DNA from: Siphonodentalium dalli
Taxonomy: Eukaryota > Mollusca > Scaphopoda > Gadilida > Siphonodentaliidae
Assembly: GCA_032622095.1 (NCBI GenBank)
Contig: CP136066.1
Coordinates: 107,155,319 to 107,219,318, forward strand
Direction: 5' to 3'
DNA: 64,000 nt
Below the pieces are notes generated by a model. The model worked only from the letters and a program-made list of their open reading frames with translations, did no database searches and was not told the origin of the DNA. Shown piece by piece: positions 5,506-63,133 of this stretch. The first letter of the stretch is position 1. Each line of letters begins with the position of its first letter. Made by a program: the position numbers and the translations under genes.

Positions 5506-5674
5506 GAACAAGTCATGTTTCTGTGTTTTATGGAATAAAAATGTGTTTATACTTCCAAAATAAGTGTTGATAAAGTTGATTTTTTAATTCCAAAATCCAT
5601 CAGTAAATGTCCTAAAATCACATCAGATAATATTTTTATCCATTCTAATCTAATGCACTCAACCTGACAACTCA

Positions 5675-5934
5675 AACCCTAATATGATGGGAGCTTCCTG
5701 AAATTTTGCAAAAACCCTGTGCCAATGCATTCTCTTATATATGCAAGTCTTCCATAGGGAGCCTCGCATATATAGGAGAATACTTTGGCCTAACAATATT
5801 TATCTTGACCTTGTAAGCCAGTGCATTCTCTTATATATGCGATGCTCCCTATAAGAGACTCGCGTATATAAGAGAATGATCTGGCACAGGATCTTTAATC
5901 CTGCACCAGCGCAGCTCCCGTCATGAAAGGTTAA
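5675..5934. mobile_element. Degenerate piggyBac-type MITE
   Basis: Internal palindromic phrases TTCTCTTATATATGC and GCATATATA match the 4554 and 7261 elements. The right end (TCATGAAAGGTTAA) is kept; the left end has decayed to AACCCTAATATGA. Confidence 0.6.
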
Positions 5935-6590: not shown

Positions 6591-6591
6591 T

Positions 6592-7255
6592 ATTTACATA
6601 CTGAAACATACCATGTCCAATTTATCACCCCTAATGTACTATTTCTTCGGCTTCGGGTGTAAAAATATTGAGTTGAGGAACCTACTCTTCAAGTTCAGAA
6701 ATGTTAGATTTTGATTTTTGAAATCTATTTATTTTCTATACCTCACATAATTGTCAGCCAAGCAAAAATTCTACCAGAAATATATGCAGACATGCTTAGA
6801 CGCAGTAAAGAGAGTTTGCAAGGTTACGATTTGCCATGGCTTTCGCAGATCAGAATTGATTTTTGGAATAAAAGACGAAAAAAATTATCATCAGAAACAA
6901 AATTGACAGCATCTTGTGATAGTCGGCATGCGGATACATAGGTATACCGTACTTATTCCCGATTCAGTAAGCATGTTTTATTCATAAAAATAGATAAGTT
7001 ATAATACAATGCTGATCACATGTGAAAGACGATGTTTATTTATATTTGTGATGGGGGAATTTCCAGTTCGAACCAGGCAACACCTTTTATGGAATTTGAG
7101 ATGTAGAAAATAAATAGATTTAAAAAATCAGAATCTGATTACTCTGTGCATTGAAACGTGGATTCTTTGACTAAAATTGAATGTTTTGCACCCCCGAAGG
7201 CATAGAAATAGTAATTTATGGGTGTTAAATTTTACAGGGTATCTTTAAATATATT
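6592..7255. repeat. Inverted-repeat pair flanking a coding-like segment
   Basis: The left arm (~6597-6750) and right arm (~7080-7250) are diverged reverse complements: each carries GAAAATAAATAGATTT, a 'GGTTCC..GACTCAA' zone, CCCCGAAG..AGAAATAGTA and a GGGTGTTAAATT/AATTTATCACCC end. Single arms of the same family occur at 13.37-13.60, 40.53-40.61, 41.43-41.59 (continuing at 46.41) and 47.34-47.43 kb. This looks like a long-TIR transposon family. Confidence 0.55.
6753..6941 (+). CDS. Coding-like segment, possible terminal exon, unidentified
   Basis: After an acceptor-like CTCACATAATTGTCAG (AG about 6756) a frame runs to TAG at 6939-6941. The peptide is balanced and soluble-looking (for example LPEIYADMLRRSKESLQ, then a Trp/Arg/Lys-rich part with WNKRRKKLSS), unlike the other low-complexity frames nearby. 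I do not recognise the family. It lies between the two arms of an inverted repeat, so it may be a transposon-borne exon, a captured exon, or the last exon of a host gene with repeats in intron and UTR. It could also be chance; no upstream exon was found. Confidence 0.35.
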   Translation, partial: VSQAKILPEIYADMLRRSKESLQGYDLPWLSQIRIDFWNKRRKKLSSETKLTASCDSRHADT

Positions 7256-7260
7256 TCTAT

Positions 7261-7504
7261 TTAACCCTTCCATGACTGGAGCATCCTGAAATTTGGTGAA
7301 AACCCTGTGCCAGTGGATTCTCTTATATATGCGAGTCTCCCATAGGGAGCCTCGCATATATAAGAGAATGCATTGGTCTAACAATATTTAACTTGACCTT
7401 GTAAGCCAGTGCATTCTCTATGGGAGACTCGCATAAATAAGAGAAAGCACTGGCACAGGATCATTTATGCTGCACCAGCGAAGCTCCAGTCATGAAAGGG
7501 TTAA
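7261..7504. mobile_element. piggyBac-type MITE, well preserved
   Basis: TTAACCCTTCCATGACTGGAGC at the left mirrors GCTCCAGTCATGAAAGGGTTAA at the right, with TTAA at both edges. Two internal hairpins are built from ATTCTCTTATATATGCGAG and its complement. No transposase frame. Confidence 0.78.
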
Positions 7505-26130: not shown

Positions 26131-27218
26131 AGCTCAACTTAGTTTGAGCTATTGCCATGGTTTGGCGTCCGTCGTCCGTGTGGCCGTCAACAATTTCCTT
26201 TGGTGCGGGCTACAGGTCGTACCTTTGGTCTGATCTTTATGAGATTTGTCATGAATGTTGACATTGACATGTAGATGGGAACGAGTCATTTTGGTGTCAT
26301 TCGGCCAAAAAACATGGCCACTGGCGGCCATCTTGGATTTCAAAATTCAATCCATTGGCACGGGCTACAGGTCGTACTGTTCGTCTGATCATCATGAAAT
26401 TTGTCATGGATGTTAATATTGACATGTAGATGGGAACGAGTGAATTTGCCAGCAGCCATCTTGGATTTTACTCTTTGCATGACTAAATCCTTTGGCGCGG
26501 GCTACAGGTTGTACCTTTGGTCCGATGTTTATGAAATTTGTCATGAATGTTGCCATTGACATGTAGATGGGAACGAGTCATTTTGGGGTCGTTCGACCGA
26601 CAAACATGGCCGCTGGCAGCCATCTTGGATTTCAAATTTCAATCCATTGGCGCGGGCTACGGGTCGTACTGTTCGTCTGATCATCATGAAATATGTCATA
26701 GATGTTAATATTGACATGTAGATGGGAACGAGTGATTTTGGGGTCGTTCGGCCAAAAAACATGGCCGCCAGAAGCCATCTTGGATTTTACTCTTTGCATG
26801 ACTAAATCCTTTGGCACGGGCTACAGGTCGTAGCTTTGGTCGGAACTTCATGAAATTTGTCATGGATGTTAACAATGACATGTAGATGTGAACGAGTCAT
26901 TTTAGGGGCGTTCGGCCGAAAAACATGGCTGCTGGTGGTCATCTTGGATTTCAAAATTCAATCCATTGGCGCGGGCTACAGGTCGTACTGTTCGTCTGAT
27001 CATCATGAAATATGTCATAGATGTTAATATTGACATGTGGATGGGAACGAGTGATTTTGGGGTCGTTCGGCCAAAATACATGGCCGCCAGCAGCCATCTT
27101 GGATTTTACTCTTTGCATGACTAAATCCTTTGGCACAGGTTAGACATTTCAATTAGCACCTTTCCTATTCCTCCATTTACTGTCAACCATTAAATTATTC
27201 CCCTACCTAAGTTGAGCT
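26131..27218. mobile_element. AGCTCAACTTA element filled with ~160/319-bp repeats, copy 1
   Basis: Left end AGCTCAACTTAGTTTGAGCT, right end CCTAAGTTGAGCT. Between them tandem ~160-bp units alternate as dimers; the phrase GACTAAATCCTTTGGC recurs at 26481, 26800 and 27119 (319-bp spacing). Units share CATGGCCGCCAGCAGCCATC, CTACAGGTCGTAC and TTGACATGTAGATGGGAACG. No coding capacity. The last part (CATTTCAATTAGCACCTTTC onward) is a unique tail shared by all copies. Confidence 0.75.
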
Positions 27219-27234
27219 ACACTTTCATTTTTTT

Positions 27235-29370
27235 AGCTCAACTTACTTTTGTAAGTTTGAGCTATTGCCATGGTTTGGCGTCCGTCATCCGTGTGTGCGT
27301 GTGTCCGTCAACAATTTCCTTTGGCGCGGGCTACAGGTTGTACCTTTGGTCTGATCTTCATGAAATTTGTCATGAATGTTGACATTGACATGTAGTTGGG
27401 AACGAGTCATTTTGGGGTCATTCGGCCAAAAAACATGGCCGCTGGCAGCCATCTTGGATTTCAAGATTCAATCCATTGGCGCGGCCTACAGGTCGTACTG
27501 TTCATCTGATCATCATGAAATTTGTCATTGATGTTAATAATGACATGTAGATGGGAACGAGTGATTTTGGGGTCGTTCGGCCAAAAAACATGGCTGCCAG
27601 CAGCCATCTTGAAATTTACTCTTTGCATGACTAAATCCTTTGGCGCGGGCTACAGGTCGTTGTTTTGGTCGGAAGTTTATGAAATTTGTCATGGATGTTA
27701 ACACTGTCATGTAGATGGGAACGAGTGATTTTGGAGTTGGTCGGCCAAAAAACATGGCCGCCAGCAGCCATATTGGATTTTACTCTTTGCATGACTAAAT
27801 CCTTTGGCGCGTGCTACAGGTTGTACCTTTGGTCTAATCTTTATGAAATTTGTCATGAATGTTGACATTGACATGTAGATGGGAACGGATCATTGTGGGG
27901 TCATTCGGCCAAAAAACATGGCCGCTGGTGGCCATCTTAGATTTCAAAATTCAATCCATTGGCGCGGGCTACAGGTCGTACTGTTCGTCTGATCATCATG
28001 AAATTTGTCATGGATGTTAATATTGACATGTAGATGGGAACGAGTCATTTTGGGGTTGTTCGGCCAATAAACATGGCCGCCAGCAGCCATCTTGGATTTT
28101 ACTCTTGGCATGACTAAATCCTTTGGCGCGGGTTACAGGTCGTTGTGTTTGTCGGAAGTTTATGAAATTTGTCATGTATGTTAACACTGACATGTAGATG
28201 TGAACGAGTGATTTTGGAGTCGTTCGGCCAAAAAAACATGGCCGCCAGCAGCCATCTTGGATTTTAATCTTTGCATGACTAAATCCTTTGGCACGGGCTA
28301 TAGGTTGCCTTTGGTCTAATCTTTATAAAATTTGTCATGAACGTTGACATGTAGATGGGAACGAATCATTGTGGGGTCATTCGGCCAAAAAACATGGCCG
28401 CTGGCGGCCATCTTGGATTTCAAAATTCAATCCATTGGCGCGGGCTACAGGTCGTACTGTTCGTCTGATCATCATGAAATTTGTCATGAATGATAACAAT
28501 GACATGTAGATGGGATCGAGTCGTTTTGGGGTCATTCGGTCAAAAAACATGGCCGCCAGCAGCCATCTTGGATTTTACTCTTTGCATGACTAAATCCTTT
28601 GGTGCGGGCTACAGGTCGTAGCTTTGGTCAGATGGTCATGAAATTTGTCATGAATTATAACAATGACATGTAGATGGGAACGAGTCGTTTTGGGGTCATT
28701 CGGTCAAAAAACATGGCCACCAGCATTTTACTCTTGGCATGACTAAATCCTTTGGCGTGGGCTACAGGTCATACCTTTGGTCTGATCTTTTTCTTTATTA
28801 AATTTGTCATGGATGTTAACACTGACTTGTAGATGGGAACGAGTGATTTTGGAGTCGTTCGGCCAAAAAACATGGCCGCCAGCAGCCATCTTGGATTTTA
28901 CTCTTTGCATGACTAAATCCTTTGGCACGGGCTACAGGTTGTACCTTTGGTGTAATCTTTATGAAATTTGTCATGAATGTTGGCATTGACATGTAGATGG
29001 GAACAAATCATTGTGGGGTCATTCGGCCAAAAAACATGGCTGCCAGCGGCCATCTTGGATTTCAAAATTCAATCCATTGGCGCAGTCTACAGGTTGTACT
29101 GTTCGTCTGATCATCATGAAATTTGTAGGTCGTAGCTTTGGTCAGATCTTCATAAAATTTGTCATGGATGTCGATTTGTCAATTATACGTAGATGGGAAC
29201 GAGTCCTTTTGTGGTCAATTGGCCAAAAAAAATGGCCACCAGCAGCCATCTTGTATTTTACTCTTTGCATCACTAAATCCTTTGGCGCAGGTTAGACATT
29301 TCAATTAGCACCTTTCCTATTCCTCCATTTACTGTCAACCATTAAATTATTCCCCTACCTAAGTTGAGAT
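27235..29370. mobile_element. AGCTCAACTTA element, copy 2 (longer array)
   Basis: Starts AGCTCAACTTACTTTTGTAA, ends CCTAAGTTGAGA with the shared tail. GACTAAATCCTTTGGC-type marks fall at 27629, 27793, 28112, 28277, 28588, 28741 and 28911, alternating about 155-170 and 311-319 bp, so monomers and dimers are mixed. About 13 monomers. It directly follows copy 1, separated by 16 bp. Confidence 0.75.
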
Positions 29371-29439
29371 ACAGTGTCATTGACACTTTCATTTTATTTA
29401 CAAAAAAAAAGTGATTTTTTTTTTCTTCACACATTTCAT

Positions 29440-31613: not shown

Positions 31614-34600
31614 GTCACAACGAATATTACCCTAGCTGTTTATATAAGCAATGCCGGCATATCTTACGGGATTCAATTATTTCAATTTGATATTATCAAA
31701 CTCCAGTGAATTCTAGAAACTTATTTCGAACTACTCAGGTGAAAGGAACTTTTCGGATACAAAAATTTCAAAATTTGCATAGGACGGGCCGAACCATGAT
31801 TGGCCCGTCCTATCTTAGGTCCTACAGACCCCACTTTTAGAGCCTAGCAGAAACCCTGGGTACAGTATACTTTAAGATATGCATAGAAATTTGTGGTCAT
31901 TGTGGCACCGAAGGGCAGTATTTTGGGCATCTTAAGAAAAAATATCATTTGCTTTGATTCACAATGATGTTCAAATCGTAGTTTCATTCCTGGGTCATTG
32001 ATATCTTTTTACCAATCAGTAAAAAATCATGATTGATTACGCAACAGTAGTTTGTCACAAGTTGTGCAACAATGCCTGTCAATTAGTTGACAGTGGAAAC
32101 AATAGGCATGACATTGATACACTCAGATTACATGTTGGGTGTGGTTACATTTTAACATGGCAACTGACATTAAGTGGGGTCTCCCCGGTGTTGAGTGTTT
32201 TGCTTATTGTATACTTGCATAATGTTTGTTTACATAACACTGCATTTGTTTACATAACAGAGAGTATGACATGTCAATAACATGCAATTTACGCGATATT
32301 TATGATTAGTATAAGAATAAAATTTGTCTAAAATATAATATTCTTTCTGTCTGTTTATGGTGGTTTTAATGGATTTGACTATTTTAACAGCAACTCTTGA
32401 TTCAATCATTAGCCTAATTAATTGGCAAGATTTCTAGTGAGTCAAATATTGGGACTTGATTTCTTCTAAAGTATATACTAGTACCATATCACAAGAATAG
32501 CCCGCTGCCACACAACATTTAAAGATACGGTAAGAGTTGGTGTTAAAATACAAATGAGAATGGACATGTTTTTGTTATCAGTAGAGATATAAATTTTAAA
32601 ACCATGAAGCAATGGCTGTGTGGTAAATTTTATGTGATATGGATGGTACTAAAGCCTTTTTACTCTCTTCTTTTCCAGTACTCCATCATATTCAAACAAG
32701 AACAAGGTCAGTCTAAATACTAATAACACATGCAAAATAGATCACTTGTGAGTCCAACAGATGGGCTGAACAGACATTTCCACAAGGCAGTTAATATCTT
32801 AATATTAGTTTTTCAAAGGGTGATAACAATTGTAACTAGCTTTTCTTGTCTATTTTTAACATGTGATATATAGATAGAACCGCATGAGTGTCTGGATTTT
32901 GACGAAATTATCGCACGAGATTTGTTGGCGGAGCGATACCTCGAGTGCGGGACTCAGTCCCGCAAGAGAGGTATCGCGTTCCGCCAACAAATCGAGTGCG
33001 ATAATTTCGTCAAAATCCAGACACTCATGCGGTTCTATTTTTATTACATATCTCTGTATCATAGTAAGTTGACTCACAATCATACATCTCCGGTACAGAA
33101 AATGTGAATTTAATTGAGTTTTAACACTGAATGAAATAGTTCGTCGACAGATTGCACTAGTGCGATTCTGAGAATTATCACACGACTGGAAAATCGTGCG
33201 ATCATGCGAATTACTGTGATAGATATGTAATAAATAGTTTTATGCTTTGATCCAAAAATGAAGGGCATTCGTTATTTCTGGTGATACCGTGTTCTAGCAA
33301 TGGATTCTCCATTTCAGTTATAAAAGTATATGTTGGAATGATCTAATATTAATCTGGTGGAATGTTCAGGAAATATAAGCAGACGTGTGCATAATACAAG
33401 TACAGAAGGTTTCCTAATAATTGGTGCGAAATGTTCAGATAAAAAATAAATGGTTGTTGAACTTTTTATCTGAACATTTCCTAATGGAACTGGTTAAAAG
33501 AAGGATACATGATTTTAGCCCAACTTTACTTGTCAAGTTGGAGCTATTGCCATGGTTTTTGGTATCCGTCGTCTGTGTGTGCATGTTGTTCATCAGCAAT
33601 TTCCTTCAGCACAGGCTACAGGTCGTACTTCTGGTCAGATCATTATTAGCTCAACTTACTTTGTAAGTTTGAGCTCTCTCTCTGTAGCTTTGGACTGATC
33701 TTTATGAAATTTGTCATGAATGTTGACATTGACATGTAGATGGGAACGAGTCATTTTGGGGTCATTCGGTCAAAAAACATTGCCACTGGTGGCCATCTTG
33801 GATTTCAAAATTAAATCCATTGGCTTGGGCTACAGGCCATACTGTTTGTGTGATCATCATAAAATTTGTCAAGAATGTTGACATTTACATGTAGATGGGA
33901 ACGAGTCATTTTAGGATCATTCGGCCAAAAAACATGGCCGCCGTCAGCCATCTTGGATTTTACTCTTTGCATCACTAAATACTTTCGCGCTGGCTACAGG
34001 TCGTATCTTTGGTCGGATCTTTATGAAATTTGTCATGAATTTTGATATTGACATGTAGATGGGAACGAGTCATTTTGGGGTCATTCAGCCAAAAAACATG
34101 GCTGCTGGTAGCCATCTTGGATTTCAAATTTGAATCCATTGGCGCGGGCTACAGGCCGTACTGTTTGTCTGATCATCATAAAATTTGTCGTGAATGTTGA
34201 CATTTACATGTAGATGGGAACGAGTCATTTTAGGATCATTCGGCCAAAAAACATGTCCGCTGGTGGCCATCTTGGATTTTACTCTTTGCATCACTAAATC
34301 CTTTGACACATCCTACAGACCACATCTCTGATCCGATCATCACCAAACTTCATAAGGATCATCGGGGTGACCTCTAGATGGGTATGAGTCATTTTGGGGT
34401 CATTTGGCCAAAAAACATGGCCGCCGGCAGCCATATTGGATTTTACTCTTTGCATCACTAAAATACTTTTGACACACCCTAGTACCCTACATACCACATC
34501 CCTGATCTGATCATCACCAAACTTCACATGGATCATCGGGGTGACCTCTTGATGGGAACGAGTCATTTTGGGGTCAATCGGCAAAACAATATGGCCACCA

Positions 34601-37600
34601 ATGGCCATTTTGGATTTTACTCTTTGTGTGACTACATATTTCTACAAAATCCATTAGTATGGGTTATAGACCGATCTGTTTGTTTGATCTTCATGAAATT
34701 TGTCATGGATGTTGACATTGACATGTAGATGGGAACGAGTCATTTTGGGGTCATTTGGCAAAAAAACATGGCCGCCGGTGGCCTTTTTAGAATTTACTCT
34801 TTGCATCACTAAATCCTTTGGCACACCCTACAGACCACATCCCTGATCCGATCATTATGAAACTTGTCATGAATGTTGATATTGACATGTAGATGGGAAT
34901 GAGTCATTTTGGGGGTCATTCAGCCAAAAAAATCTTGTCTTACTTAGACATTTCAATTAGCACCTTTCCTAATTCCTCCATTTACTGTCAACCATTAAAT
35001 TATAGTAGGGCTACAGTGTCATTGACACTTTCATTAAATTTGTCGCGGCTGTTGAAATTGACATGTAGATGGGAAACGACTGATTTTGGGGTCATTCGCC
35101 AAAAAAAACATGACCACCTGTGCCCATCTTGATTTTAGAATTCAATCCATTAGCACGAGCTACAGGCCGTACCATTTGTCTGATGATAATGAAATTTGTC
35201 ATGGTTGTTGACATTGATGAAAAACATGGCCACCGGCAGCCATCTTGGATTTTACTCTTTGCATAACTAAATCCTTAGGCACACCCTACAGACCACATAG
35301 CTGATCCGATCTCACCAAACTTCATATGGATCTTTTGGGTGATTACTATATGGGAGTCATCTAATTTTTTCTAATTTTATTTGAAAACATGGCCACCAAT
35401 GGCCATCTTGGATTTCACTCTTTGTAGTTTGTATGACTAAATCCTTTGGTACACCACACAGAAACATCCCTTGTCCGATCATCACTTAACTTCAGATGGT
35501 TCTTCGAACTGACAACAAGATGGGGGTCATCTAATTTTTCCGAATCTCGTTAAAAAACATGCCCGCTGGCAGCCATCTTGGATTTAAATTTTTGTATGAC
35601 TAAATTTGTTAGCACACATCCAATCATCAATAAATTTCATATTGATTTTCAGGGTGACCACTAGATGGGAGATATCAAATTATTTTGAATTTCATTGGAA
35701 GACATGGCTGTCAATGGCCATCTTAAATTTACTTTATATTTATCTCTTCATGTTCACATCTAATATCACATTGACATTTCAACTTTCTGGCTCCATTGAC
35801 TGTAACACATGAAATTATCCCCTCTCAAAATTGACCTACAGTGTCATTGATACTTTCATTCTACATTTTTTCAGCTCATGACGATAGTATTTGGAGCTGT
35901 GCATGGCGAAAAAGTGAGAAAGATAATACAGAGAATATTGTAACAGGGTCAGTGGATGACACAGTCAAAGTTTGGAAATGGTAAATATATTTCCTCTACC
36001 TGTGTAACCTGCAGGCACGAAGCTTTCAAGTTTGTGTCAAAAAGCATTGTCACAAGTATTTTTTGCATTTCCAGGGAACTGGCAGTTGCAGTTAGGCTAA
36101 TGTGCAGAGTGATGGTAGATTAGTTTGTATTATCCACCCTTCAACTTTTAAATTTTGACTATTGAAGTAAGACTGATTTTTCACAAATCTATCAAACCGT
36201 GTATTTTACCTTTGCAATACATACAATTAAAGATACCTGCTGATTTAACATTCCTAAATTACTATTTCTTCTGATTAAAGTTTAGCGAGGGAAGCCTAAC
36301 TGTCTTAGTATAGCGTTGGTCGAGTTGAGTTCTCGTAAGTTGCTTGTTAAGTATGATAACTTAGGTGATAAGTATGTGGTATACTAGTACTATGTTTATA
36401 GTTTAGTGGTTTTACTGATTTTGCTTGGGTTAAGCTCTTCAGGTGTGACAAACACCTGAAGAGCTTAACCCAAGCGAAATCAGTAAAACAACTAAACTAT
36501 AAACATAGTACTAGTATACCACATACTTATCACCTAGTGACAAACACCTGAAGAGCTTAACCCAAGCGAAATCAGTAAAACCACTAAACTATAAACATAG
36601 TACTAGTATACCACATACTTATCACCTAAGTGACAAACACCTGAAGAGCTTAACCCAAGCGAAATCAGTAAAACCACTAAACTATAAACATAGTACTAGT
36701 ATACCACATACTTATCACCTAAGTGACAAACACCTGAAGAGCTTAACCCAAGCGAAATCAGTAAAACCACTAAACTATAAACATAGTATTAGTATACAAT
36801 GTACCACATACTTATCACCTAAGTTATAATACTTAACAAACAATTTACGAGAACTCAACTCGACCTACGCTATACTAAGACAGTTAGGCTTCCCTTGCTA
36901 AACTTTAATCTTATAACTAATCACCCCAACTTCTTACTAAATGGCTACACATATTACACCCGCATCATCAACCAGTGATTTATGGCTCACAGACACAGAA
37001 GTCGAACAATCCGACACAGGTGAACCAAACTCGAACACGGATAATAGGAACGCCAAACGAAGGCGTGTCCTATCACATCCCGCCAAAAAACACGATAAAA
37101 CTCCACACGTGAAAATCAATGTCCCCTTAGACAAAATTCCTTTATACAAGGCCAGGAGAAATGTCCGAATTAAAATCGTCAAAGCGGAACAACACATAGA
37201 ATTTCTTAACCGCTGCTTGACCGAACGGCTCATACCTCTTAGTCAACGAGTTAGTATCCAACCAACTAATATCTGCACACAGGAACCACACGCACAAAGA
37301 CAAAAAGAGACACTCCTTGAAGCTTCACTCAACATTATACAAATCAACAAAGACCTCACACAATTCCGACTTGACCAAAACAAATCGGATTTCATTGCCA
37401 AAAGCACTGAACTTAATGCCTCATTCTCACTAACTGAAAGAAACGAGACAGAAGAAGCAATAGGCACACTCCTAACAAGACTCAAATTGGAGCTAAGACA
37501 GAGGAATATGGTCAGAATAGAATCCCTAAAAAAGGAAAAGGTCAACGACCCCTACTTCATTTCAGTCACTGAACTCAGACTGAACAAAGATACCCTACCA

Positions 37601-40600: not shown

Positions 40601-43600
40601 CTTCAAAGCTCAGAGCTAAGGCCAAAAAAAAAAAGTGTTTTGGTTCTCGGGCAATTTTTTTTTCAAATCAATGAGGGAGGGAGGGTTTTATTTTTATTTT
40701 TTATTTTTTTCTGCGCATAGTAAGCATGGACAAAGATACCTTCCTCTGTCTAGTAATAACCAGAAAGGTAGAGGGAACTGTTATGCATATAAACTCATTT
40801 AGTCTTATATAAAAATGACATTGTACTACCAGTGTATGACTGGGATTACCTAACAATATATAATGCCCCTGACATTAACTACTGTTATTGTTGTCTAAAA
40901 ACTGATAACTCCCCATTCTAATATGTGATCCTGAATTTAGTCCTGTGCCTTTCAATTGTATAAAGTTACAATTAGTGTAAGTTGTTCACAATGACTAATT
41001 GTAAGAAGAGCATGAGGATCAGCTAATCATTTTCTTAATTGTAGTCATCTACTTTATGTTGTAAGCCTGCAAGTCACTTTTTAACACATTACATGTTAGA
41101 GCTCAATGCACACTAATATTCAACACATATCTGCTATGGACATGTTGATTAAATCCCCCAAAAAAAAAAATGTTTTTTTTTTTTTTTCCAAATTTTTTTT
41201 TTCGTAAGTTTTTTTGTCGTAACATCGGGCATTGCAATAAAAAGGCCTAATGCGGCCCTTTTTATTCAATGCGGCGGTGCCTGAGAACCAAAACCTTTTT
41301 TTTTTTTGGCCTAATAGATTTAAAATTTGTATGCATGTCATGTTTTATGCAAGTTATATTACCATGCCGAAAGACCACGTGAAAGAAGATGTTTATTTAC
41401 ATTTCTGATGACCTATCCTGGGGAATTCCAGTTCAAACCAGGCATCACCTTTATGGAATTTGAGTTCTGGAAAATAAATAACATAGATTTCAAAAATTGA
41501 AATCTAAAAGCTCTGACCATTGAAGGGTGGGTGGGTTCCTTGACTCAAATCAAATATTTTTCACCTCCGAAACCATGGAAATAGTAATTTTCCGCCAAGG
41601 AGAAGCCCTCAACTGAACTATATGGATTACGTCTCCGGCCTTGTGTCAATCAGGAGGGTTAAAATTTTATTGCTGTGCCGACCCCACTCACATCCGTGTC
41701 CAGATTAGTCTCGCATGAATACACCCGCATTCTATCTATTGTCTAGTCAGTTTTTATTCCTCCTCGCCAGGACAGGATCGTTTCTATTTTCTCAAGGTTG
41801 TATCTTTCTGTGTTGCGAGTTTATCGACTCAATATTTATTGTTGATATTACAAACTTGCAATTTATTGTACCCGATAGTTAATTAATATTTCTCACATCC
41901 GAAACGGGAACTTTTTTCGTTTCACTGTATCCGTAATTTGTTTCCGTGTTTTCTGTTTTCCTCACGACGGCTTTATCTTCCAACAATTGGAATTAAGATG
42001 GCCATCTTGACAATGACTAAAGAAGCACATAGCTTACTTGTGGCAAAACCACATAGTGCATATTGTGCCACACATACGGCGTGATGACTATCATGACTTA
42101 CAATTGAGGACGCAATGTAGTACGGTATGCGATGTCTCCTAATTTCGTGCTACACGTGTTTCACTTTACATAAGTTTCCGTCGACTCGCTTCGGTTATTT
42201 CGTAAGTTCCGTTGCTTTGTATCCTAATGTATACTGCCAAATCATACATGGCACTGCTCTGTTAATTCGCAGAAAGTTGCACAGGACAGCCATATCCTCC
42301 TTTGTAATAATTTACATGAATAAATACGAAAGATAGTACTTGTTATCACTATCAGATGACAATTCACATTTCTTTCGACTGAGCGATCTGTAATATTGTT
42401 TTAACGATCAATACCTGCGAATCTACGCACGCCAGTATGTATGAGCGCGTGGTCTTGTTAGACACATGACAAATGTAATAACACATTACATCGACTTCAA
42501 GGTATTTAGAAAATTCTACCTTGTCTATCACGATTAAATATCATATAACTCATTGTATCATCAGTACAATAGTTACTAACACTCCGTAACAGGGGGATGG
42601 TATTCGTTTTCACATATATAACCACACTTCGAATTGATGTGTTGTCTGACGTTCTAAATATTGTGTTGCATTCGTTACATCCATGTATGTACAGTTTGGG
42701 TTCCTACGAACTATTGTTCACCAACTGCAATGAAGTGAAAACTTTGTGGCCTGACACTAAGCCATCTTACCGTAGGCTCTAATATGCCTCGGCGTGGGCG
42801 AGCTTGCAATAATGTATTGCACGCCGTAATAGTTCCATACATTGTACATGACAATCATATCGTATCAGGGCCTCATGTATGCTGTCAGACCTGACTACTA
42901 GTATGCTTACATATGGTGAACAGTTTTCATCCCAATACTGACATACTTTGCAGTTTCATCAGTGAATGATAACGGCAAACAGCGAAATAGAACGAATACA
43001 TATTGTCACGTGCTCCAGATTCACTGCCAATAGTCTTTCCAGTAGAGACCATCACTTGGCTCACTAACTTCTATTTCCACATATATCAAAACGATATTCT
43101 GCCAAATAGCTTTCACTAGTGTATGATGCGCAGTTACCTGCAACACATTTATATTGCGCGGAATATCAGAAAGGACTGCATTTGTATTGTTACATGTCTA
43201 AAGCGAGCTTACATGCGCAGCGTTTATATTGCCACATCTACTGCCAATATATTTCCGAAACCGGCCAAGACATGGCTCTTCGTCTATTGTCACATATCCA
43301 CTGATTATGTGACAAAACGATTCGATACAATCATGTCGAAAATGAAGGCATTCGTATCTTCACGTCCGCTGTAAGCGCACTTTCCTAACGGAAACCGCCT
43401 AGTTCTTGCCTATGTGCATTCGGAACTCATCGTCCTCATATACGAGAAAAGACAGTATCTTACCTGTCATAGCAGGTAAGATCACGTGGCCAGGGGTATA
43501 ACGTGATTTTATATTAACCTTCCTTTATACTCAATAACCTAGGTTGTATTGTGTTATGTATATTAACCTTGCTTTGTTATAACTAACAGCATGTCTTGCG

Positions 43601-46600
43601 GTCGAACATGATTCGAATTTGATGGCCACACACCGTGCAGGTTGCTCATTCACAGGTGTATTACTTGTTATAGTTGGGTAAGGGCATATTAGTCAATGAT
43701 TTCCTACTTTGAGCAACCGTACCAGTCTTTACCTCGGGCAGGACCAGTTCTGGCCCCCCAGGTCCTGCTACGGCAGTATGAACCAATGGTAGGCGGGTGC
43801 TGCAAGTGGTTGATTCGGGAAACCAATCTTCACGGGCGATTGCTCCGGCACCTTTCTCTCAGGTGCCTAATGGTAGTGGCAATACGATTATTAAATTTCG
43901 AAAAAATTCACATCGATATACTATTATTCCACATAGAGTGAAATTTCCATCAGTATTTTGATTTCGGCCTGGATTCCTGCCACGAAGATCTGTTTATTGG
44001 GCACCTGGGAGTAGCCTTTGGCGGCTGTTCTGGGTGGGGAAGACTCGTTGTCACGTGACGCTCTTGCTCTCATAGACATAGCGCACCAGCCAAATGGCCT
44101 TCTGACTCTTCCCCATGGTGCAGTGGCCCACATCATACAAGATGGGGTCCAGTCGATCCCCTGGAATCGTAATACCTTCGGGATACATCCGGGCCTGCTC
44201 CTCCGCCGTCATGCGATCATAGTGGTATGTCATCGACATTTATTCCAGTTTGGTCAGGACCACCTGCATTTGGGGGATTCCATGGAAGGGGCTTCCTCTG
44301 ATCAACTGGCTCATCAGAACTTATTCCCTCTGGCCTTGGGGGCGCAGCTTGATGATGCCCCAGAATTTGAGGGGGTGACCTTGGACAGGCCATAGCTACT
44401 TATCCCAAATGCAAGAGCATTTGTCTTGCGTCGAACCATTTCAGAGTAGGCCTCTTCCACAGTCTGGTATCCCAACCTGATGCAGCCAATTCTGTTGGCT
44501 GGCGTCGATCTTGACATGCTTCTCTGCATCGCGTGGCGTCGGCAGGTTTGACGACGATGAGCAAGAATCGCGGGTCGACAGTGGGTCGTCAGGCACACTG
44601 TCGGACGAGGATTCTTTTTAAGAAAAAGAAGAGGAAAAGAAAAAGAAGAAAAAAGAAAGTTCTGGGTGGGGAAGACTCGTTGTCACGTGACGCTCTTGCT
44701 CTCATAGTCTAGACATAGCGCACCAGCCAAATGGCCTTCTGACTCTTCCCCATGGTGCAGTGGCCCACATCATTACAAGATGGGGTCCAGTCGATCCCCT
44801 GGAATCGTAATACCTTCGGGATACATCCAGGCCACTCCTTCACCGGTAGGAAAGTAAGGCTGAATGATCTGGGTGGGGAAGACTTGTTGTTGCGTGCCTC
44901 CAAGTGCTGCACCAACCAACCTTCTAACTCTTCCCCATGGTGCAGGGGCCCACATCTCCACAAGATGGGGTCCAATCCCCTGGAATCGTAATACCTTAGG
45001 GATACCTCCAGGCCACTCCTTCACCGGTAGGAAAGAAAGGCTGAATGATCTGGGTGGGGAAGTCTTGTTGCGTGCCTCCAAGAGCTGCACCAACCAGCCT
45101 TCTATCTCTTCCCCACGGTGCAGTGGCCCACATCTCCACACGATGGGGTCCAATCTCCTGGAATCGTAATACCTTCGGGATACCTCCAGGCCACTCCTTC
45201 ACCGGTCATTTTGCAATTTTGATCATTCTGCTACATTTGATCATTTCGAAATGTACCCGACACTCGTTATGTGCGCCATCATAGATCACTGATGCTTCTA
45301 TGCTTGTTCATCAAGTCCGCAGTGGTGTTCTCTAATCCCATATATACTGGTATGCAATGATACCTTGGATCATGATGGCGTTCCCTGCTCTCTACATTAT
45401 ACGAGGCTGGAGTACAGATGTGTGGCATGATATAATGAAACCTCATACCTCGCTATGATATCTGCAGCATATCATTTTTATATCTGGTTTGTGTATCACA
45501 GGGAGCAATTTACTTTCGATATCTGATTAGCAAATAATCTCACTTTAACATGATTAGATAGCATTTTTATAACATCATACATGTATAAAGAAATTCCTCG
45601 CTATTACCGGTATCCACATTTCAGTGGCAAATCGCGATGCGATTCCAGTTAATTTGCTCCCTGGTGTATCATAAGCATTCTGATATCTTATGGCCTACAC
45701 AATGGCTGCATGTGACATCAGTTCATAATGTGAACTGTCGAGAGAGCGAAGAAGATGACACAGAGAATAGGATGCAGCAAAGTTATACTTGCTCGGTTGT
45801 CTCGCTAGCATGAATTCTATGGCACTACCTGGGATGTTTATTCCAAAAACAAGGGGGGCGGGCGGTACACATTTGAGCAATGTCGTAATCTGAATTGGGA
45901 GCTCTTTCACGTAACATAATCATATCTGATTCATGACTAAATCACATTTACATGAATCATGTTTCGGAAGAGTACATTCCCATCGAATTTGGATATTAAT
46001 TAACTTTATTGCTCGTGCCTCCTCCTGGGCTTGCATTCTAATCCATATAGTTCAGTTGAGGGCTTCTCCTTGGCGGAAAAATATAATATTTATAAATAAT
46101 ATTACTTTTTCCTTAAGGGAAGCCCGAAACTGAACTATCATAGATCCCTCCCATGGTGGTGCCATTCCCAACCCCGCGACTCGCAAATCTCATGATTAAG
46201 TCGGAAATAAAAAACTGACTAGACAATAGATAGAATGCGGGTGTATTCATGCGAGACTAATCTGGACACGGATGTGAGTGGGGTCGGCACAGCAATAAAA
46301 TTTTAACCCTCCTGATTGACACAAGGCCGGAGACGTAATCCATATAGTTCAGTTTCGGGCTTCCCTTAAGGAAAAAGTAATATTATTTATAAATATTATA
46401 TTTTTGACAGGGCACCTTTAATTACATATTTGGTAAAGATAACAGAAACTATTATAAATTTGTTCTGGGTAGATTTAGCAAAAATTTCAACAATTAAAAT
46501 ACATGAATTTCAATAAATTTGGCATATACATAAAACATGAAATGACTGTGTACAGATGAACTTGATTATTAATGTTTTCATGTCATTCAAATACATTACT

Positions 46601-57050: not shown

Positions 57051-57799
57051 AATAGGATATTTGCTCTTTGATTCCTTTTCGAATATTATTTTTACGTGCA
57101 TATATATCTTATTGAATACAGTATTGTTTTAATCTGAAATATGTATGAAAAATCATATTCCCCAACCTCTTAAGAAGGTTACCAAAACAGGAACGTGTCC
57201 GATTTAGGTTGAGATACACTGGAACAAAAACTCTTTGGTTGGACGGTTTCGATAGAAAGTAAAACATAATGACTATAAATATCCACTAAACGGATTGTGA
57301 ACGCACATTTTTCGACATCATTGTTAGTGCTAGCTGGAACTAAATGTAGCCCATGGATTCCCCATTTCGACATGTACGAAAAGTGGTTTCAGTCTTAGCT
57401 CTTCTCAGATATCAACTCTCCGGTGAATGATGATGTCTTATGTCCTAGAAAATATTTGTGCCAAATACATATATGTATGAGGAAACTATCCCCATACATT
57501 GTTTACACATCGAATCAGCAAGTCTGTGGAGGTCTTCTTGGACAAGCGAGATTTTCAAAACTCGAAACCGTCTTTACAAACAGTAAAAGTTCATATGAAT
57601 GCCGTTGGGTGTAGGTCTAGAGTATGTCGTCTGCAGGAGATAGTTTTCATGTCAATAATTTGCACATATTTCGTGCTCTGATCAGCATGGACGAAAGCCT
57701 TATGTGGCAGTTTGATTGTCTAGCATCCGGAAAAGAACATGTTCATTGTTCACATTTCTTTGACAAACATGTTGTTGGTCACCATGTTCATGTGGCATA

Positions 57800-58003
57800 T
57801 TTCCGCCAAAGGAAGCCCTCACACTGAACTATATGGATAGATGTCCTGCGTTTGTAAACCATAGCAGAAAAGGGGTTAACTTTTTGGTCGCCTACGGTCA
57901 TTCACGGTCTGTACTTTTCAGTGGCTTGCCTCGGAATCAGTCACGCATGCGCAGTCCCAATATAATTCACTGTACAGATTGAATTAGCCAGTTTATTTTT
58001 CTG
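57800..58003. repeat. DIRS B left inverted terminal repeat
   Basis: Starts TTTCCGCCAAAGGAAGCCCT. Complementary over ~190 bp to 62907-63090. Confidence 0.8.
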
Positions 58004-58366
58004 CTACCAACCAGACGGATCTAAGGGAGTATTTTTCCGAATTTGTCGTTTAACAATAGCGACAAATTCAATTTATCGATACAATAATTACTGGTCGCCT
58101 ACGCGTTCGTTTTTATAATTATCGTTTCGAATTCACGGACCGTTTCGTTTCAAACATATAATGGTTCGTGTTTTTCGAACAGGCGGCGAACTTAAAAACA
58201 ATTTATCGAATATGAAAATCAGCATTTCGCCATAATTAGCCGCCATTTCAAGGCCTTACGAGGCGCACAGATTATTGTGAGAAATACATCTATGGAATTA
58301 TTATAGCACCTATAAGGTATGATAGAATTTGTCAGATATCAAAAATGCCACGTGATTCACCGCCGG

Positions 58367-58934
58367 AAGTATCCTAATTTCGTGGGAATTATTTTGACGT
58401 TTTAATGCGTGGAAATTTATTTAGCAATAATTCCATCGCTACTGACGCTTTCTCTCGTCATGTTATGAACGAAGTGCTTTCACATAATACTATGTTGTTT
58501 TATGTTTCAATACAAATGATCCAGATGTGTTAATCACGTTTGACCTTGAAGTTGATTACAATCTACACAAGAATACTGACAGTTGATTAGATCTTGGTTT
58601 ATCAATGTCATATGCATAACAATAACTTCATATGACAGTAGTACCGTCAGAAGTATCCTAATTTCGTGGGAATTATTTTGACGTTTTAATGCGTGGAAAT
58701 TTATTTAGCAATAATTCCATCGCTACTGACGCTATCTCTTGTCATGTTATGAACAACGTGCTTTCACATAATACTATGTTGTTTTATGTTTCAATACAAA
58801 TGATCCAGATGTGTTAATCACGTTTGACTTTGAAGTTGATTACAATCTACACAAGGTCAAGAATACTGACAGTTGATTAGATCTTGGTTTATCAATGTCA
58901 CATGCATAACAATAACTTCATATGACAGTAGTAC
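58367..58934. repeat. 284-bp tandem duplication inside DIRS B
   Basis: AAGTATCCTAATTTCGTGGG recurs at 58367 and 58651. The two units are nearly identical apart from a few substitutions and a short insertion (AGGTCA) in the second. Confidence 0.85.
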
Positions 58935-59054
58935 CGTAGTGCTACGAATAAAATCTCAGCCATGTCATAGATGTATGTCGATTAATAGCTACTAGTACCT
59001 TGTATATAGGTCTAATGAACAATACCGCTATTCTCAGAGTGGTTGACCAGAAAA

Positions 59055-59335
59055 ACGAGGTGATACCCCGGTCATGACCGCGGTGATACCGGTAATAAAT
59101 GGTAGCGGTATCGAGACGGTCATGGCGGTGGAGTTACGGTATTGGGCGATAATGATACCGCGGTCTTTTAGCGGGCACCGCATTAATTTTGTTGAATACC
59201 GCAGTGATTTTCATGGAACTCTTTGAGGGGAGGTATTTACTCACACATACTTGTTCGCGTTAACAAGCGGTATCAGTACCGCGGTATTGGAGGATACCGC
59301 GGTATAGTACCGCCATATTAACGGGGTGATACCAC
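59055..59335. repeat. Cluster of ATACCGCGGTA-type motifs
   Basis: A dozen or so copies of GATACC, ACCGCGGT and GGTATTG words in both orientations. CpG-rich island within relic B. Confidence 0.5.
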
Positions 59336-59649
59336 GTTATTGGTGGTCAATTACTTTAAGTATGGCGGTAGCTGCGATTATACACCAGCCGGTTCAGCAA
59401 GCCGGTCTGAACCGGTGGGCTTGTAAATTTCTGAGAAGGATCCAGGGATGTTTTTCTACCTGTTACAGGTTTGGGCGCTCAAACTCTGGAGACCCTGGGG
59501 ATAGTAATTATTCAAGTTGGTTCTCCATTATTTCAACGAATTTTTCTATAATTCAACAACTAAACATGAAAATCGGATAAGATATAGAGCCTTTATTTGC
59601 ACCATCTCTGGATCCTCCCCAGGTAGTATTTCTCGGTCGGATCTCTTCT

Positions 59650-60178
59650 CGGGCAGGAACAGTTCACGCTCCCCCGATTATGCCTCGGCATTAAATCAAT
59701 TAGTGGGAAGGCGACCGGTGGCGATGCAGGGGTACTTGGGACCCCCAGGACATTCGGTCCCACACCGGCGCAAGCGGTTCTGTGTGCTGAAGTTGCCAAA
59801 ATCGCGTGCGAACGTAACGACACCGGCTGGGCGGCCTACGGCGACTTCGGCATAGGGCAGTGGCCCTACCCATGAGGTAGCAAGCCCGGTCCCCTTGGTC
59901 ACGATCTATATAAAGACACGGCCTTGCCTGCCTCTCAGCCGTCTTGGGCTTTCTGCTGCAATGGCCTCTACCCATCGTTCTGCTTGGACAGGACATTCAG
60001 CTTGGTCGGGACCACCTGCATTTGGGGGGGGGGGGCTCACCCCGGTCCGATGGCTCCACCTCCTTCCGGTTATCAGAAGAAACCAGTTTTGGCTATGGGA
60101 TTCTTCATTTCGACACTGGACTCCAAAATTGGAACTCAGTTTATCAGCCTTTTGCTCAAACAGTTGGCCATAGCTTAA
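59650..60178 (+). pseudogene. Degenerate DIRS-type gag remnant (tentative)
   Basis: One frame runs from about 59650 to TAG at 60176-60178 with a single in-frame TGA (59873-59875). It shows an Ala/Val-rich helical part followed by TGWAAYGDFGIGQWPYP, reminiscent of the 'GW..YD..FR' block I associate with DIRS/Ngaro gag proteins. Downstream a Cys-rich patch ends in a GGGAHPGP segment, resembling a decayed 'C..C..H..C..CGGAHP' knuckle. This is family-level resemblance only; several key residues differ. Gag would package element RNA. Confidence 0.35.
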
Positions 60179-60839
60179 AATTCCATGGGAGGTATTTACA
60201 CCTCGATTGAGCCATCGCCGGAATGGGCCTCCCTCTAGTGTTTTGTCGTCCATTATTGCAGGTCGTTCCGACGCTAGGGCAGAGAGCGACATGCTATCCT
60301 TACACCCCAAGGCGTCTGAGGCTTTCGATGACGACCCGTCTGCGCACAATACGTCAGACTGTGGGTCTTTTCGGTCGTCACAGTCTGGCATCGGTAAGGC
60401 AGAAGCTGCGGATCGTGATTTCCTATCCACGGATTATCTCATCTATAGGCTTCTTCCTACTGAACTATGAACTCTCAAGCCCTCCTGGCACGCCCTGCGC
60501 AATCGTACCACCGTCTTCAAAATGCATCGAGAACTCGATCTATCTTACCTGTGATATACATTTCATAGGTAAGGTACACGACCCGCGACTGACACACTGG
60601 TCAATAGACTTCACACATGAATGAAGCACATTTCCATGGAAAGCATTTCTCTTGTCACGTGCCACAACGACCCTGCCAATGGCCTGGCCGACAGAGTACA
60701 TCTCATGGCTCTTCATACTCCTATTACCAATATCAATTTGATTATCTGGCACAGGGCACAGGGCACAGGGCACTGCACGCCTATAGACAATAGACAATAA
60801 CGCGGGCAAAGACGTTTGCACTGTCCATCTCAGCTTTCT

Positions 60840-61195
60840 AGGAAGCTCATTGACTAGCGTTATAGACCTTTCCTTGCAGGCAGGGGACCACCCAGTCCGA
60901 GTGGATCCCAACCCCATGGCACCCGATCATAAGGGCCTGAAACCATGCTGCCAACTCTGCGCGCTTCGGTATATGCCGGATTTGTCCTATCAACATTCGA
61001 CAATAAAACAGGCAAAGACGTTTGCGCTGTCCAGCTCAGCTTTCGAGGAAGCTCATTGACTAGCCATCAAACCTTTCCTTGCAGGCAGGGACCAACCCAT
61101 ATGAGGGGATCCCAACCACATGGCACCAGCCACCCAATCATAAGGGCCTGAGACCATGCTGACAACTCTGCTCGCTTCGGTCTATGCTGGATTTG
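60840..61195. repeat. Two ~205-bp direct repeats in DIRS B
   Basis: CTTTCCTTGCAGGCAGGG, ATAAGGGCCTGA.ACCATGCT and GGATTTGTCCTAT occur twice in the same order (about 60867-60992 and 61073-61202). Confidence 0.65.
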
Positions 61196-62741
61196 TCCTA
61201 TTTTCCTTAAACATGCCTTCAACAGGACCGCTTAGGTCGGGGGAGCTCCTCTCCATCATGGCTCTTAAAATTCAATAAGTAACAACATTATAAAGGGATG
61301 TGTGTCCTTTACTAGGAGGATAAAAATTTTCATTTGTTTCCTTCAGCGAGCCATTTTGGAGGGGGTCTTCCCCTAGTTTGCTGCATGCCTCACACTAACA
61401 TATCACACATCTAGGTCGTTCTGCTGCATGTTTGGGGGGGAAAGTGACATGATGTTCTGGGCAGAGGCTCAGAACTGAATATTCCGTATGGTGACAATTT
61501 ACCCGTGGTTATCATCTGATTACATTGTACATCATTTGAACTGATTTCAGTTGTCAAAGAGCCAAAGGGCCTTCTGCAATGATCTCATTGTGACTTATAG
61601 ATCACCTTGATATATATTTTTTATATCATTTTTATATATTTATATCAGTCCTTCCCAGGAGACGGAGTGATTGCTCTCACACCCGTATGCACTCGTAATT
61701 TTCAATTCACTGGTGCTAAAATTCGCACCCGTCCTTCTTCACAAAATACTAATGGAGACTGTAATTGTTGGTTCAATATTGAACTATTTTAAGGTTTATT
61801 TAGATGCTTTACCATCTCAGTGCAACTATGGCATATTAAAGTGTAACTAGACATACATGTAGGTCTATTCCACAATCGGCACAATGACTTTTTGTTTGAG
61901 CAAAAACCCACCTTACATGTACAATTATGGTATCGTATGGGTGCCTTATTACACCCGTCTTCTGCATTACGGGAGCAAATAAATGCTCTCGGTGTGTTTT
62001 CCTCATGGGAAGGACTGTTTATATACTCGTAAGATTTGTATCACAGGGTTTCTGTCGGATATCTTGTGATGCATAGGTACCTCAGAGACATGTGATCAGT
62101 AGAAGAAAAACAAGGAAGCTGTTCTAAGAACGACAGGGGGCATGACCACCTTGCAAGATGCGTGGGTGGGGGCTCCCTCTGTTCAGATGGCTTGACTCCA
62201 TTATCGTTGTACAACCTGTTTGGCCTAATGGGTTCTCAACTCAATCCCTGTGCCACAAATTTGGCATCAGGTTCTCTGGCTTTTTCTTTGGCGAATAGCA
62301 GTTAGTTAACTTTGGTTGTCTCGCCATCGGCGGAGTGGGCCTCCGTCTGTGCAGGTCGTTCTGTCGCTAAGGCGGAGAGTGAGTTAGTCTCCTTCCTTCA
62401 TGATCCTGCATCATGGGACCTTGACGGGTGGGACCTTAGAACAGACAGCTGAAGACGACGACACAGAGAAGAACGAAGAGTTTCTTCTAACGTTATACTT
62501 GCTCGGTTTGCTCGCAACTATGCATTGGATGGCACCTCATGGGATGTTTGTTTCAAAACAAGGGGGGCGGTACACATTTGAGCAATATAGCACTCTAACT
62601 ATATGAGTTATTTCACATAAATAATCCTAACAGATTCATTAAAGTGTTCATATATGGTACAATCTGTTTTAGAAGAGTACCTTTACTCAAAATTTGGCTA
62701 TTAACTTTATTGCTCGTGCCTCCTCCTGGGCTTGCATTCTA

Positions 62742-62842
62742 ATCCATATAGTTCAGTGTGAGGGCTTCCTTTGGCGGAAATATGATATTTTAAAAAATAT
62801 AATATATATTTCCTTAAAGAAAGCCTGAACACTGAACTATCA
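62742..62842. repeat. DIRS B internal complementary region
   Basis: TCCATATAGTTCAGTGTGAG...GGCGGAAAT complements the left end; TATGATATTTTAAAAAATAT...CTGAACACTGAACTAT complements the right end with a few differences. Confidence 0.82.
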
Positions 62843-62906
62843 TAGTGCCCTCCCATGGCGGTGCCATTCCCAACCCCGCGACTCGCCAATCTTCTGATTG
62901 AGTTGA

Positions 62907-63133
62907 AAATAAACTGGCTAATTCAATCTGTACAGTGAATTATATTGGGACTGCGCATGCGTGACTGATTCCGAGGCAAGCCACTGAAAAGTACAGACCG
63001 TGAATGACCGTAGGCGACCAAAAAGTTAACCCCTTTTCTGCTATGGTTTACAAACGCAGGACATCTATCCATATAGTTCAGTGTTCAGGCTTTCTTTAAG
63101 GAAATATATATTATATTTTTAAAAATATCATTT
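62907..63133. repeat. DIRS B right inverted terminal repeat
   Basis: Shares its outer block with the left ITR and ends in an AT-rich extension, ATTTTTAAAAATATCATTT. Confidence 0.78.

Follow-up and report, generated by a model that had tools for sequence, protein, structure and literature searches.

Does a DNA element with inverted termini, an internal copy of its own joined ends and no recognizable replication enzyme belong to the DIRS-type retrotransposons, and if so, what mobilizes it? The element, here called A, lies in a 64,000-nt window of the Siphonodentalium dalli genome (GCA_032622095.1, CP136066.1, positions 107,155,319-107,219,318); coordinates below are within this window. Our analysis indicates that A belongs, with high probability, to a DIRS-type tyrosine-recombinase (YR) retrotransposon family that is enzyme-less (non-autonomous), was amplified recently and is presumably mobilized in trans.

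Layout of element A and of its neighbor B

Element A is ordered as left inverted terminal repeat (ITR), body, ICR, right ITR and right extension. The features of A and of a second element, B, are as follows:

41588..46401, + strand: element A, in our reading a complete non-autonomous DIRS-type element, from end matching, repeats and comparison with other copies
41588..41755, + strand: left terminus and left ITR, the first 40 nt mirrored in the ICR
43615..44277, + strand: probable decayed gag relic in pieces 43615-43686 and 44080-44277, from tblastn with the L118 gag
44027..45206, no strand given: internal repeats of families D1-D5, ~178-185 nt apart for three units
45779..46040, + strand: 3' tail of A, common to element B
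46041..46138, - strand: ICR, corresponding to the right and left termini joined and reverse-complemented
46210..46405, - strand: right ITR (46210-46363) and right extension; 46402-46405 are probably target bases
57796..63131, + strand: element B, in our reading a second enzyme-less DIRS-type element, with ITRs at 57808-57999/62906-63097, ICR at 62742-62840 and gag relic at ~59638-60469

Inverted terminal repeats of the kind found in DIRS1-like elements are present in A as two arms (41602-41755 and 46210-46363) that are 99% complementary over 154 nt. The 98-bp ICR, when reverse-complemented, matches the right terminus (46344-46405) at 62/62 positions and the left terminus (41588-41627) at 40/40, the two end-derived halves overlapping in TTTT/AAAA. 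By comparison, 300 random 62-mers of A show a median of 33 mismatches to their best inverted match in A. The proposal of the initial annotation that the ICR is an exact reverse complement of the joined termini is confirmed. The low tail of this control, at 0 mismatches, is expected from samples falling inside the ITRs and ICR themselves. In 11/11 copies read (the window copy and 10 others), the ICR equals the copy's own joined ends (40/40 and 58/58), and so represents a circle junction as in DIRS1-like elements. The A1...B1-A2-B2 split direct repeats of Ngaro, VIPER and PAT were not found in A, as its termini are inverted.

A six-frame Pfam scan of A detected no RT, RNase H or YR, its only match being an unrelated DUF (E=0.12); RVT_1 was recovered in the positive controls L015 (5.7e-18) and L118 (1.3e-21). 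The RT and YR proteins of three DIRS elements of this genome (L076, L077 and L118) gave a best match to A of E=0.25, or none at E<=1. The RT/RNase H and tyrosine recombinase of an autonomous DIRS1-like element are thus missing from A, as was first noted from its reading frames. Most of the 4.8-kb body is non-coding, and part of it is repeated. No origin was recognized for about half of the body, save a stretch of 119 nt near 42987-43104 with 66% identity to B. The tail had suggested by eye a decayed YR C-terminus; this idea was dropped, as it found no tblastn support and the tail aligns downstream of the L118 YR stop.

Element B lies 11 kb from A in the same window, and its Pfam scan in all six frames likewise gave no enzyme match. 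Its gag relic is strong (E=4e-59), and it keeps far more gag than A, with 841 nt at 84% that directly adjoin sequence from the ICR end. The tails of A and B are 79% identical over 443 nt (A 45779-46211), and their circle junctions agree in 73/99 columns.

A young family and its candidate helpers

The genome (2.23 Gb) contains 277 exact matches to a 40-mer of the A ICR and 212 to a 40-mer of the body, against 0 for the reversed control of each. The best 25 of 5520 candidate copies genome-wide are 99-100% identical to A, 15 of them uninterrupted. The copies of this young family number in the hundreds and are nearly identical, in agreement with the recent mobilization initially suggested. The exact body probe is carried by 51 of 100 listed A-ICR loci; 16 of the other 49 were fetched, and all proved to contain A bodies, at ~94-99% over the aligned pieces. 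Of the 74 exact body probes in the range compared, 21 had no exact ICR 40-mer within 8 kb. The hypothesis that loci with the ICR but lacking the exact body probe are autonomous partners was rejected for this sample, in which all 16 lack YR and RT. The absence of enzymes is thus, as far as examined, a property of the family, rather than a loss in the window copy as the initial annotation had worded it.

DIRS-type RT and YR sequences are abundant in the genome. A search for DIRS-type RT yielded 150 scored places from 1606 candidates, all at a 37-55% match, and 56 of the 150 were fetched (16 + 40) to survey their tails. ICR/right-end pairs of the same design were found at 15/16 of these RT loci (L035, when rechecked, had none), at 23/40 in fixed 751-nt windows, and in 17/20 YR-clade tails. 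Around the ICR, only L027, L028 and L059 among the 56 fetched RT places match A or B. L025 contains one A/B terminal 10-mer and no further similarity. The clade sharing the tail of A was reached through the YR search, after the RT-locus survey.

Within this clade, L118 possesses open gag, RT/RNase H and YR frames, ITRs of 237 nt at 98% and an ICR matching its ends at 41/41 and 63/63. Its RVT_1 and RNase H are above the Pfam cut-off; its YR falls below the curated cut-off of the Pfam recombinase family (E=0.0017, 18.6 vs 27.1 bits), so the YR name also rests on position and a conserved C-terminal motif. The segment of A at 46012-46056 extends 16 nt into the ICR. Over 46 nt it shows 91% identity to DIRS elements with a YR frame, including L118, and the identity of the tail to L106, L107, L108, L110, L111 and L116 is 89-91% over the same length. 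The circle junctions of A and L118 agree in 59/100 columns, and junction/outer-end identity among five families is 51-74%. This tail, the shared terminal words and the probable gag relic indicate common ancestry with enzyme-bearing DIRS, as for a non-autonomous derivative, and on these sequence matches the L118 clade would provide the nearest helper candidates found.

It is possible, if somewhat doubtful, that the helper is instead an autonomous DIRS family that is still unsampled and has termini like those of A (a CCGCCAA... left end). The terminal words CCGCCAA and AAGCCCTCA are common to A and B and missing from the junctions of L118, L076 and L027 (= L077 locus), but the tail of A matches the six elements named above, and 0/16 sampled A-ICR loci are autonomous. 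The search of the genome for YR- and RT-bearing partners proposed at the outset came out in favor of the proposal, with abundant DIRS relatives and one clade carrying the tail of A; no autonomous element with the outer ends of A was found, whether among the relatives or at the 16 fetched ICR loci.

Elements with PF00589 were also followed as a route to the helper and were ruled out. Seven of 150 listed places were read as 9-kb stretches, along with six smaller loci; the seven stretches each contain one YR frame of 548-659 aa, and none carries A/B termini or, at E<=1e-3, resembles the gag, the RT or the YR of L118. Their matches to the A/B stretches at E<=0.01 fall only in the flank left of A. 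Cryptons carry a YR gene and no RT or ITR/ICR; in A, ITRs and an ICR are present and no YR was detected. Amplification of A mainly as DNA, in which a helper YR would excise and re-insert circles in a Crypton-like manner without reverse transcription, appears improbable. YR-type insertion would explain the junction data below, and elements with Pfam-strong YR genes are abundant, but under the established DIRS model an ICR is needed only where ends are rebuilt from RNA, the seven PF00589 loci match nothing in A itself at E<=0.01, and the tail of A matches RT-bearing DIRS elements.

Right boundary, insertion sites and gag relic

In the 10 other full-length copies, the right end of A is constant only to ...AATATTATAT; the three bases that follow vary among them (TTC, TTT, ATT, ATC, ATA, TTA), and TTTT follows ...AATATTATAT in the window copy alone (1/11 copies). 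Wherever an empty site was read, these variable bases equal the target sequence, with the exception of the third base at L093/L092 (A, vs T and G in its two empty copies read). On this evidence A strictly spans 41588-46401, with the TTTT at 46402-46405 probably target-derived. The initially reported AAAA overlap of the two ICR halves is thus present as 4 bp but includes target bases of the window insertion and is peculiar to this copy. The circle junction of A would accordingly read ATATTATAT/TTTTCCGCC.

In a first empty-site screen, 11 joined flank pairs of A copies were compared with the window, and A-free repeats there match two pairs, both from the 10 other copies (116/120 ungapped; 108/118). 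The second match has one 1-nt gap ~20 nt from the junction. Two further insertions were sought genome-wide and empty versions of both were found, for L088/L089 at 119/120, twice, and for L093/L092 at 113/118 and 114/120, where the gaps do not lie at the junction but away from it. All four insertions show zero target duplication and zero target loss. The target read from filled and empty sites is T-[A/T]-T-like, and A thus inserts as DIRS1-like elements do, at a short T-rich junction without target-site duplication.

These sites bear on the reading of A as a DNA transposon with long TIRs (MITE- or foldback-like), in which the internal complementary segment would be a chance or secondary repeat. 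Long near-perfect inverted termini with no enzyme detected would suit such an element, as would the 2-base flank matches seen in 3/11 copies, all of them copies for which no empty site was read. We nevertheless consider it very unlikely: flank matches across the 11 copies never exceed 2 nt, the target-site duplication of a TIR transposon or MITE is absent from these flanks and from the four empty sites, the ICR equals the joined ends exactly in every copy, the same design stands beside RT/YR elements of this genome, and the tail is shared with L118. Insertion without duplication or loss fits a tyrosine recombinase and not a TIR transposon. The alternative that the initial annotation had set against itself, a TIR transposon in a genome without DIRS relatives, fails on both counts, and its assignment of A to the non-autonomous DIRS-type elements is upheld by the insertion data, the exact ICRs and the relatives present.

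A search of A with the L118 gag (tblastn without composition correction) gave E=4e-7 for aa 110-180 and E=0.007 for aa 6-34, and the best E for the reversed-sequence control was 0.05; with composition correction the two matches were weak (E=0.003 and 0.019). In addition, 31 nt at 44246-44276 are 87% identical to L118 gag DNA. The body of A thus probably keeps a decayed gag of the L118 clade, at most a relic of the gag of DIRS1-like elements. As A copies are 99-100% identical and the gag homology is ~35-38% at the protein level, decay preceded amplification. The probable relic might also suit a decayed autonomous DIRS copy kept by chance, with no mobile non-autonomous family, but this is hardly credible given that disparity in identity and the enzyme-less body at 51 of the 100 listed ICR loci and all 16 fetched of the other 49.

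Proposed mobilization and comparison with known systems

We infer that A is mobilized in trans by the machinery of DIRS relatives in the same genome, with RNA-mediated copying presumed from its family membership. The RT of a DIRS helper would copy A RNA, the ICR would serve as the template for rebuilding the ends and linking them into a circle with the junction given above, and the helper YR would recombine this junction with a short T-rich target. Recognition may perhaps proceed via the words TAGTTCAGT.../...ACTGAACTA at the termini, together with the conserved tail CCTCCTGGGCTTGCATTCTA. A broader proposal, whose chances we judge to be even, is that A and B exemplify a class of large parasites of DIRS elements, copied entirely by foreign DIRS proteins and recognized via the ~46-nt ICR tail and TAGTTCAGT words, the ICR being a heritable template that rewrites both ends in each cycle. 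Such rewriting would allow a parasite family to drift to new outer ends, yet stay self-consistent.

LTR, LINE and DNA transposons all have well-known non-autonomous partners. The terms "non-autonomous DIRS" and "nonautonomous DIRS" were absent from the open-access literature searched (subscription literature and Repbase being outside its scope), in which we found no earlier description of a non-autonomous partner of an ITR/ICR-type DIRS. That a young enzyme-less family of hundreds of copies has perfect ICRs suggests that ends, ICR and a short tail may suffice as the cis sequence for DIRS replication. The family also provides natural empty and filled sites for reading the target rule, so that the long-standing circle model can be tested solely on variants of the ends and the ICR, without the constraints that coding imposes.

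TOC1 of Chlamydomonas is a large enzyme-less relative of YR retroelements with split direct repeats rather than ITRs and an ICR; a description of it as a DIRS relative was not found in the literature searched. Within the S. dalli genome, A resembles B, L118, L077 and L076 in its related tail upstream of the ICR, TAGTTCAGT-type terminal words and ITR/ICR layout (the left end of L077 lying at the edge of the fetched stretch), while L118 and L077, unlike A, have open gag, RT and YR frames. DIRS1-like elements have ITRs with a divergent outer part, a right extension, an ICR that lies close to the 3' end and complements the two ends, a T-rich junction without target-site duplication, and a short word common to both ITRs and both ICRs (PMC3266345). 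A shares all of these features and differs in lacking RT, RNase H and YR, with at most a gag relic. In Trypanosoma, the non-autonomous element SIRE, which derives from the YR retroelement VIPER (PMC6681497), is like A an enzyme-less derivative of a tyrosine-recombinase retrotransposon. SIRE, however, is ~0.4 kb long and tied to the split direct repeats of VIPER, its mobility left open in that text, whereas A is a 4.8-kb element with ITRs and a perfect ICR.

Structure and copies of element A

41588-46401, forward: element A, an enzyme-less DIRS-type element (TTTT at 46402-46405 probably target-derived)
41602-41755 and 46210-46363: arms of its inverted terminal repeat (ITR), 154 nt, 99% complementary
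44027-45206: its internal repeats
46041-46138: its internal complementary region (ICR), or circle junction
57796-63131, forward: element B, a second enzyme-less DIRS-type element

The initial annotation described the ICR of A as an exact reverse complement of the joined termini, and this holds to the base: reverse-complemented, it matches 46344-46405 at 62/62 positions and 41588-41627 at 40/40, the two matches overlapping by four T. Six-frame Pfam scans likewise upheld the absence from the body of an RT, RNase H or tyrosine recombinase (YR) frame: none of these was detected in A, and the sole family listed was an unrelated DUF (E=0.12). RVT_1 is matched in DIRS loci of the same genome, at 5.7e-18 in L015 (with stops written as X) and 1.3e-21 in L118. 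The internal repeats sit in a GC-rich part of A (53% GC at 44001-45000), and the stop-to-stop frames on their reverse strand reach 141 aa.

In the assembly searched (2.23 Gb, nine contigs), the right end of A as query gave 2071 candidates; each of the 40 scored is listed as 100% identical over 405-411 of 411 nt. With the whole of A, 25 of 5520 candidates were scored, their main pieces being 99-100% identical. Fifteen of these (window included) are full-length and uninterrupted, eight carry the same variation of the body around query position 3116-3160, and the last two are broken up otherwise; a few more diverged pieces (65-90%) lie beside some scored copies in the same listing. Genome-wide there are 277 exact occurrences of a 40-mer spanning the ICR and 212 of one from the body, the reversed pattern of each being absent. 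When listed matches were compared, the body probe lay upstream of 51 of 100 ICR matches, at 2263-2405 nt in 44 of the 51, and the exact ICR 40-mer was absent within 8 kb of 21 of the 74 body probes in the compared range. Sixteen of the 49 ICR loci without the exact probe were fetched: all contain the A body (approximately 94-99% over aligned pieces), and none of the 16 has an RT or YR match. As far as examined, the A family is large, young and enzyme-less throughout.

Insertion sites of A copies and other repeats of the window

26181-29381 and 33674-35741: arrays in which 155-nt and 164-nt units alternate
4558-7419: four palindromic units of approximately 69 nt (GCCAATGCATTCTCTTATATATGC...), also pairing with one another in inverted orientation; they may form a small foldback element
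36273-36910: a tandem repeat of four 93-nt units, with flanking inverted arms of 75-109 nt (93-99%)

Ends and flanks were examined in the window copy and in ten further full-length copies (of 14 found). All 11 have the left end TTTTCCGCC and the right end ...AATATTATAT, and in each, 40 nt at the left end and 58 nt at the right end agree with the ICR of that same copy at every position. Past the constant right end, six copies have T and five have A as the first base, and all 11 have T as the second; T precedes the left end in 10/11. Flank matches of 2 nt occur in three of the 11 copies and longer ones in none.

Empty versions of the target were found for four insertions. The alternating 155/164-nt repeat is the target of two copies, and the window therefore holds their empty sites: the joined flanks of L086/L087 align with 34333-34452 at 116/120, ungapped, and those of L080/L081 with 27989-28106 at 108/118, where a single 1-nt gap lies approximately 20 nt from the junction. 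No empty site was found inside the window for the other joined flank pairs. Two of these were searched genome-wide, and each gave two empty matches: both at 119/120 for L088/L089, and at 113/118 and 114/120 for L093/L092. In the latter the gaps lie at a distance from the junction, and the third base past the junction in the filled copy differs from that in both empty ones. In all four cases filled minus empty site is A itself, with zero duplication and zero deletion. Conservative recombination between a circle junction and a short target predicts such insertion, and ordinary transposition by terminal inverted repeats does not. The four-base overlap of the termini, initially annotated as AAAA, is present, and the empty-site comparison indicates that in the window copy it includes target bases and is not wholly the element's own.

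DIRS relatives and the descent of A and B

With 72 aa of a DIRS-type RT as query, 1606 candidates were obtained, and all 150 scored match at 37-55% identity. The ICR/right-end inverted pair was found in 15 of 16 tails of RT loci, the exception being L035 (rechecked), and in 23 of 40 further tails taken as fixed 751-nt windows, where misses may represent misplaced windows. Among the surveyed tails, only those of L027, L028 and L059 match A or B in the ICR region. Searching with a YR sequence of this clade yielded 118 rows; of 20 tails examined, 17 have the ICR pair and 16 carry TAGTTCAGT. In a stretch of 46 nt that extends into the ICR, A is 91% identical to L106, L107, L111 and L116 and 89% to L108 and L110. 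The motif CCTCCTGGGCTTGCATTCTA(AT)CCATATAGTTCAGT, which straddles the start of the ICR at 46012-46056, is common to A, B and the YR-frame elements of the first four of these tails, and may serve in cis as a priming or recognition signal. Elsewhere in the genome, seven loci (L007-L013) have one YR frame of 548-659 aa with an inverted repeat downstream in 7/7, and are possibly Crypton-like.

A stop-free 985-aa frame is open in eight of the 118 YR rows. One of these, L118, was read whole. Its open frames are a gag-like one of 543 aa, one of 752 aa that matches RVT_1 (1.3e-21) and RNase H (3.8e-6), and the YR frame of 985 aa; its ITRs span 237 nt (98%), and its ICR agrees with the ends at 41/41 and 63/63 positions. 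Its YR frame matches Phage_integrase at only 0.0017, below the family cut-off, and the predicted YR identity rests also on a conserved C-terminal motif ahead of the ICR, seen with a simple pattern in 8/16 tails. A second relative, L077, has gag-type (683 aa), RT-type (730 aa) and YR-type (984 aa) frames. The gag-like protein of L118 (L118:1362-2990) has a PAM2 motif just over the Pfam cut-off (20.2 vs 20 bits); PAM2 is known to bind poly(A)-binding protein.

At the level of sequence a gag relic in B is certain, the L118 gag matching at E=6e-76 uncorrected and 4e-59 composition-corrected, with 841 nt shared at 84% in DNA. In A the relic is probable: two pieces in the right order match at 4e-7 and 0.007 uncorrected and 0.003 and 0.019 composition-corrected (best reversed-sequence control for any L118 protein, 0.05), and 31 nt at 87% to L118 DNA in the same place add support. 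The correction weakened the relic of A and left the odds for the reading of A unmoved, since these depend on its ends, its insertion sites and its copies. The 130 nt directly after the gag stretch of B start, in L118, 6 nt inside the ICR end; gag is joined straight to ICR-end sequence, and the ancestor of B therefore seems to have lost everything between. B as it stands is a mosaic, with 8176 first-look candidates genome-wide and main pieces of 95-100% in the 28 scored.

The circle junction of A is identical to that of L118 in 59/100 columns and to that of B in 73/99, and each family's ICR corresponds to its own ends (one mismatch in 102 in B, exact in L118). Ends and ICR change in step, which is what templating of the ends by the ICR would produce.

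Proposed mobilization and comparison with known elements

What is established for A is its structure, its number of copies, the exactness of its ICR, its conservative mode of insertion and the tail it shares. We propose that A would be transcribed and its RNA copied by the RT of a DIRS helper, after which the ICR would guide circle formation and a YR would insert the circle; the published DIRS model covers the last of these steps (PMC3266345). Among the elements found, the L118 clade is the likeliest helper, given the tail and terminal words that it shares with A. A closer, unsampled DIRS family is a serious alternative, as the outer ends of A and the L118 clade differ considerably.

Phrases for a non-autonomous DIRS occur in no paper of the open library searched (Repbase and subscription journals lying outside it), and the portions seen of PMC8498967, PMC12477816, PMC5633606 and PMC4157794 describe no enzyme-less ITR/ICR family. 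Degenerate families and remnants are reported from Xenopus (PMC9210276) and from fungi (PMC3783388), the fungal survey being confined to elements in which a protein domain could be detected; VIPER has a non-autonomous derivative, SIRE (PMC6681497). DIRS1-like ends, the ICR, the right extension and insertion without target duplication are well documented (PMC3266345; PMC8969392).
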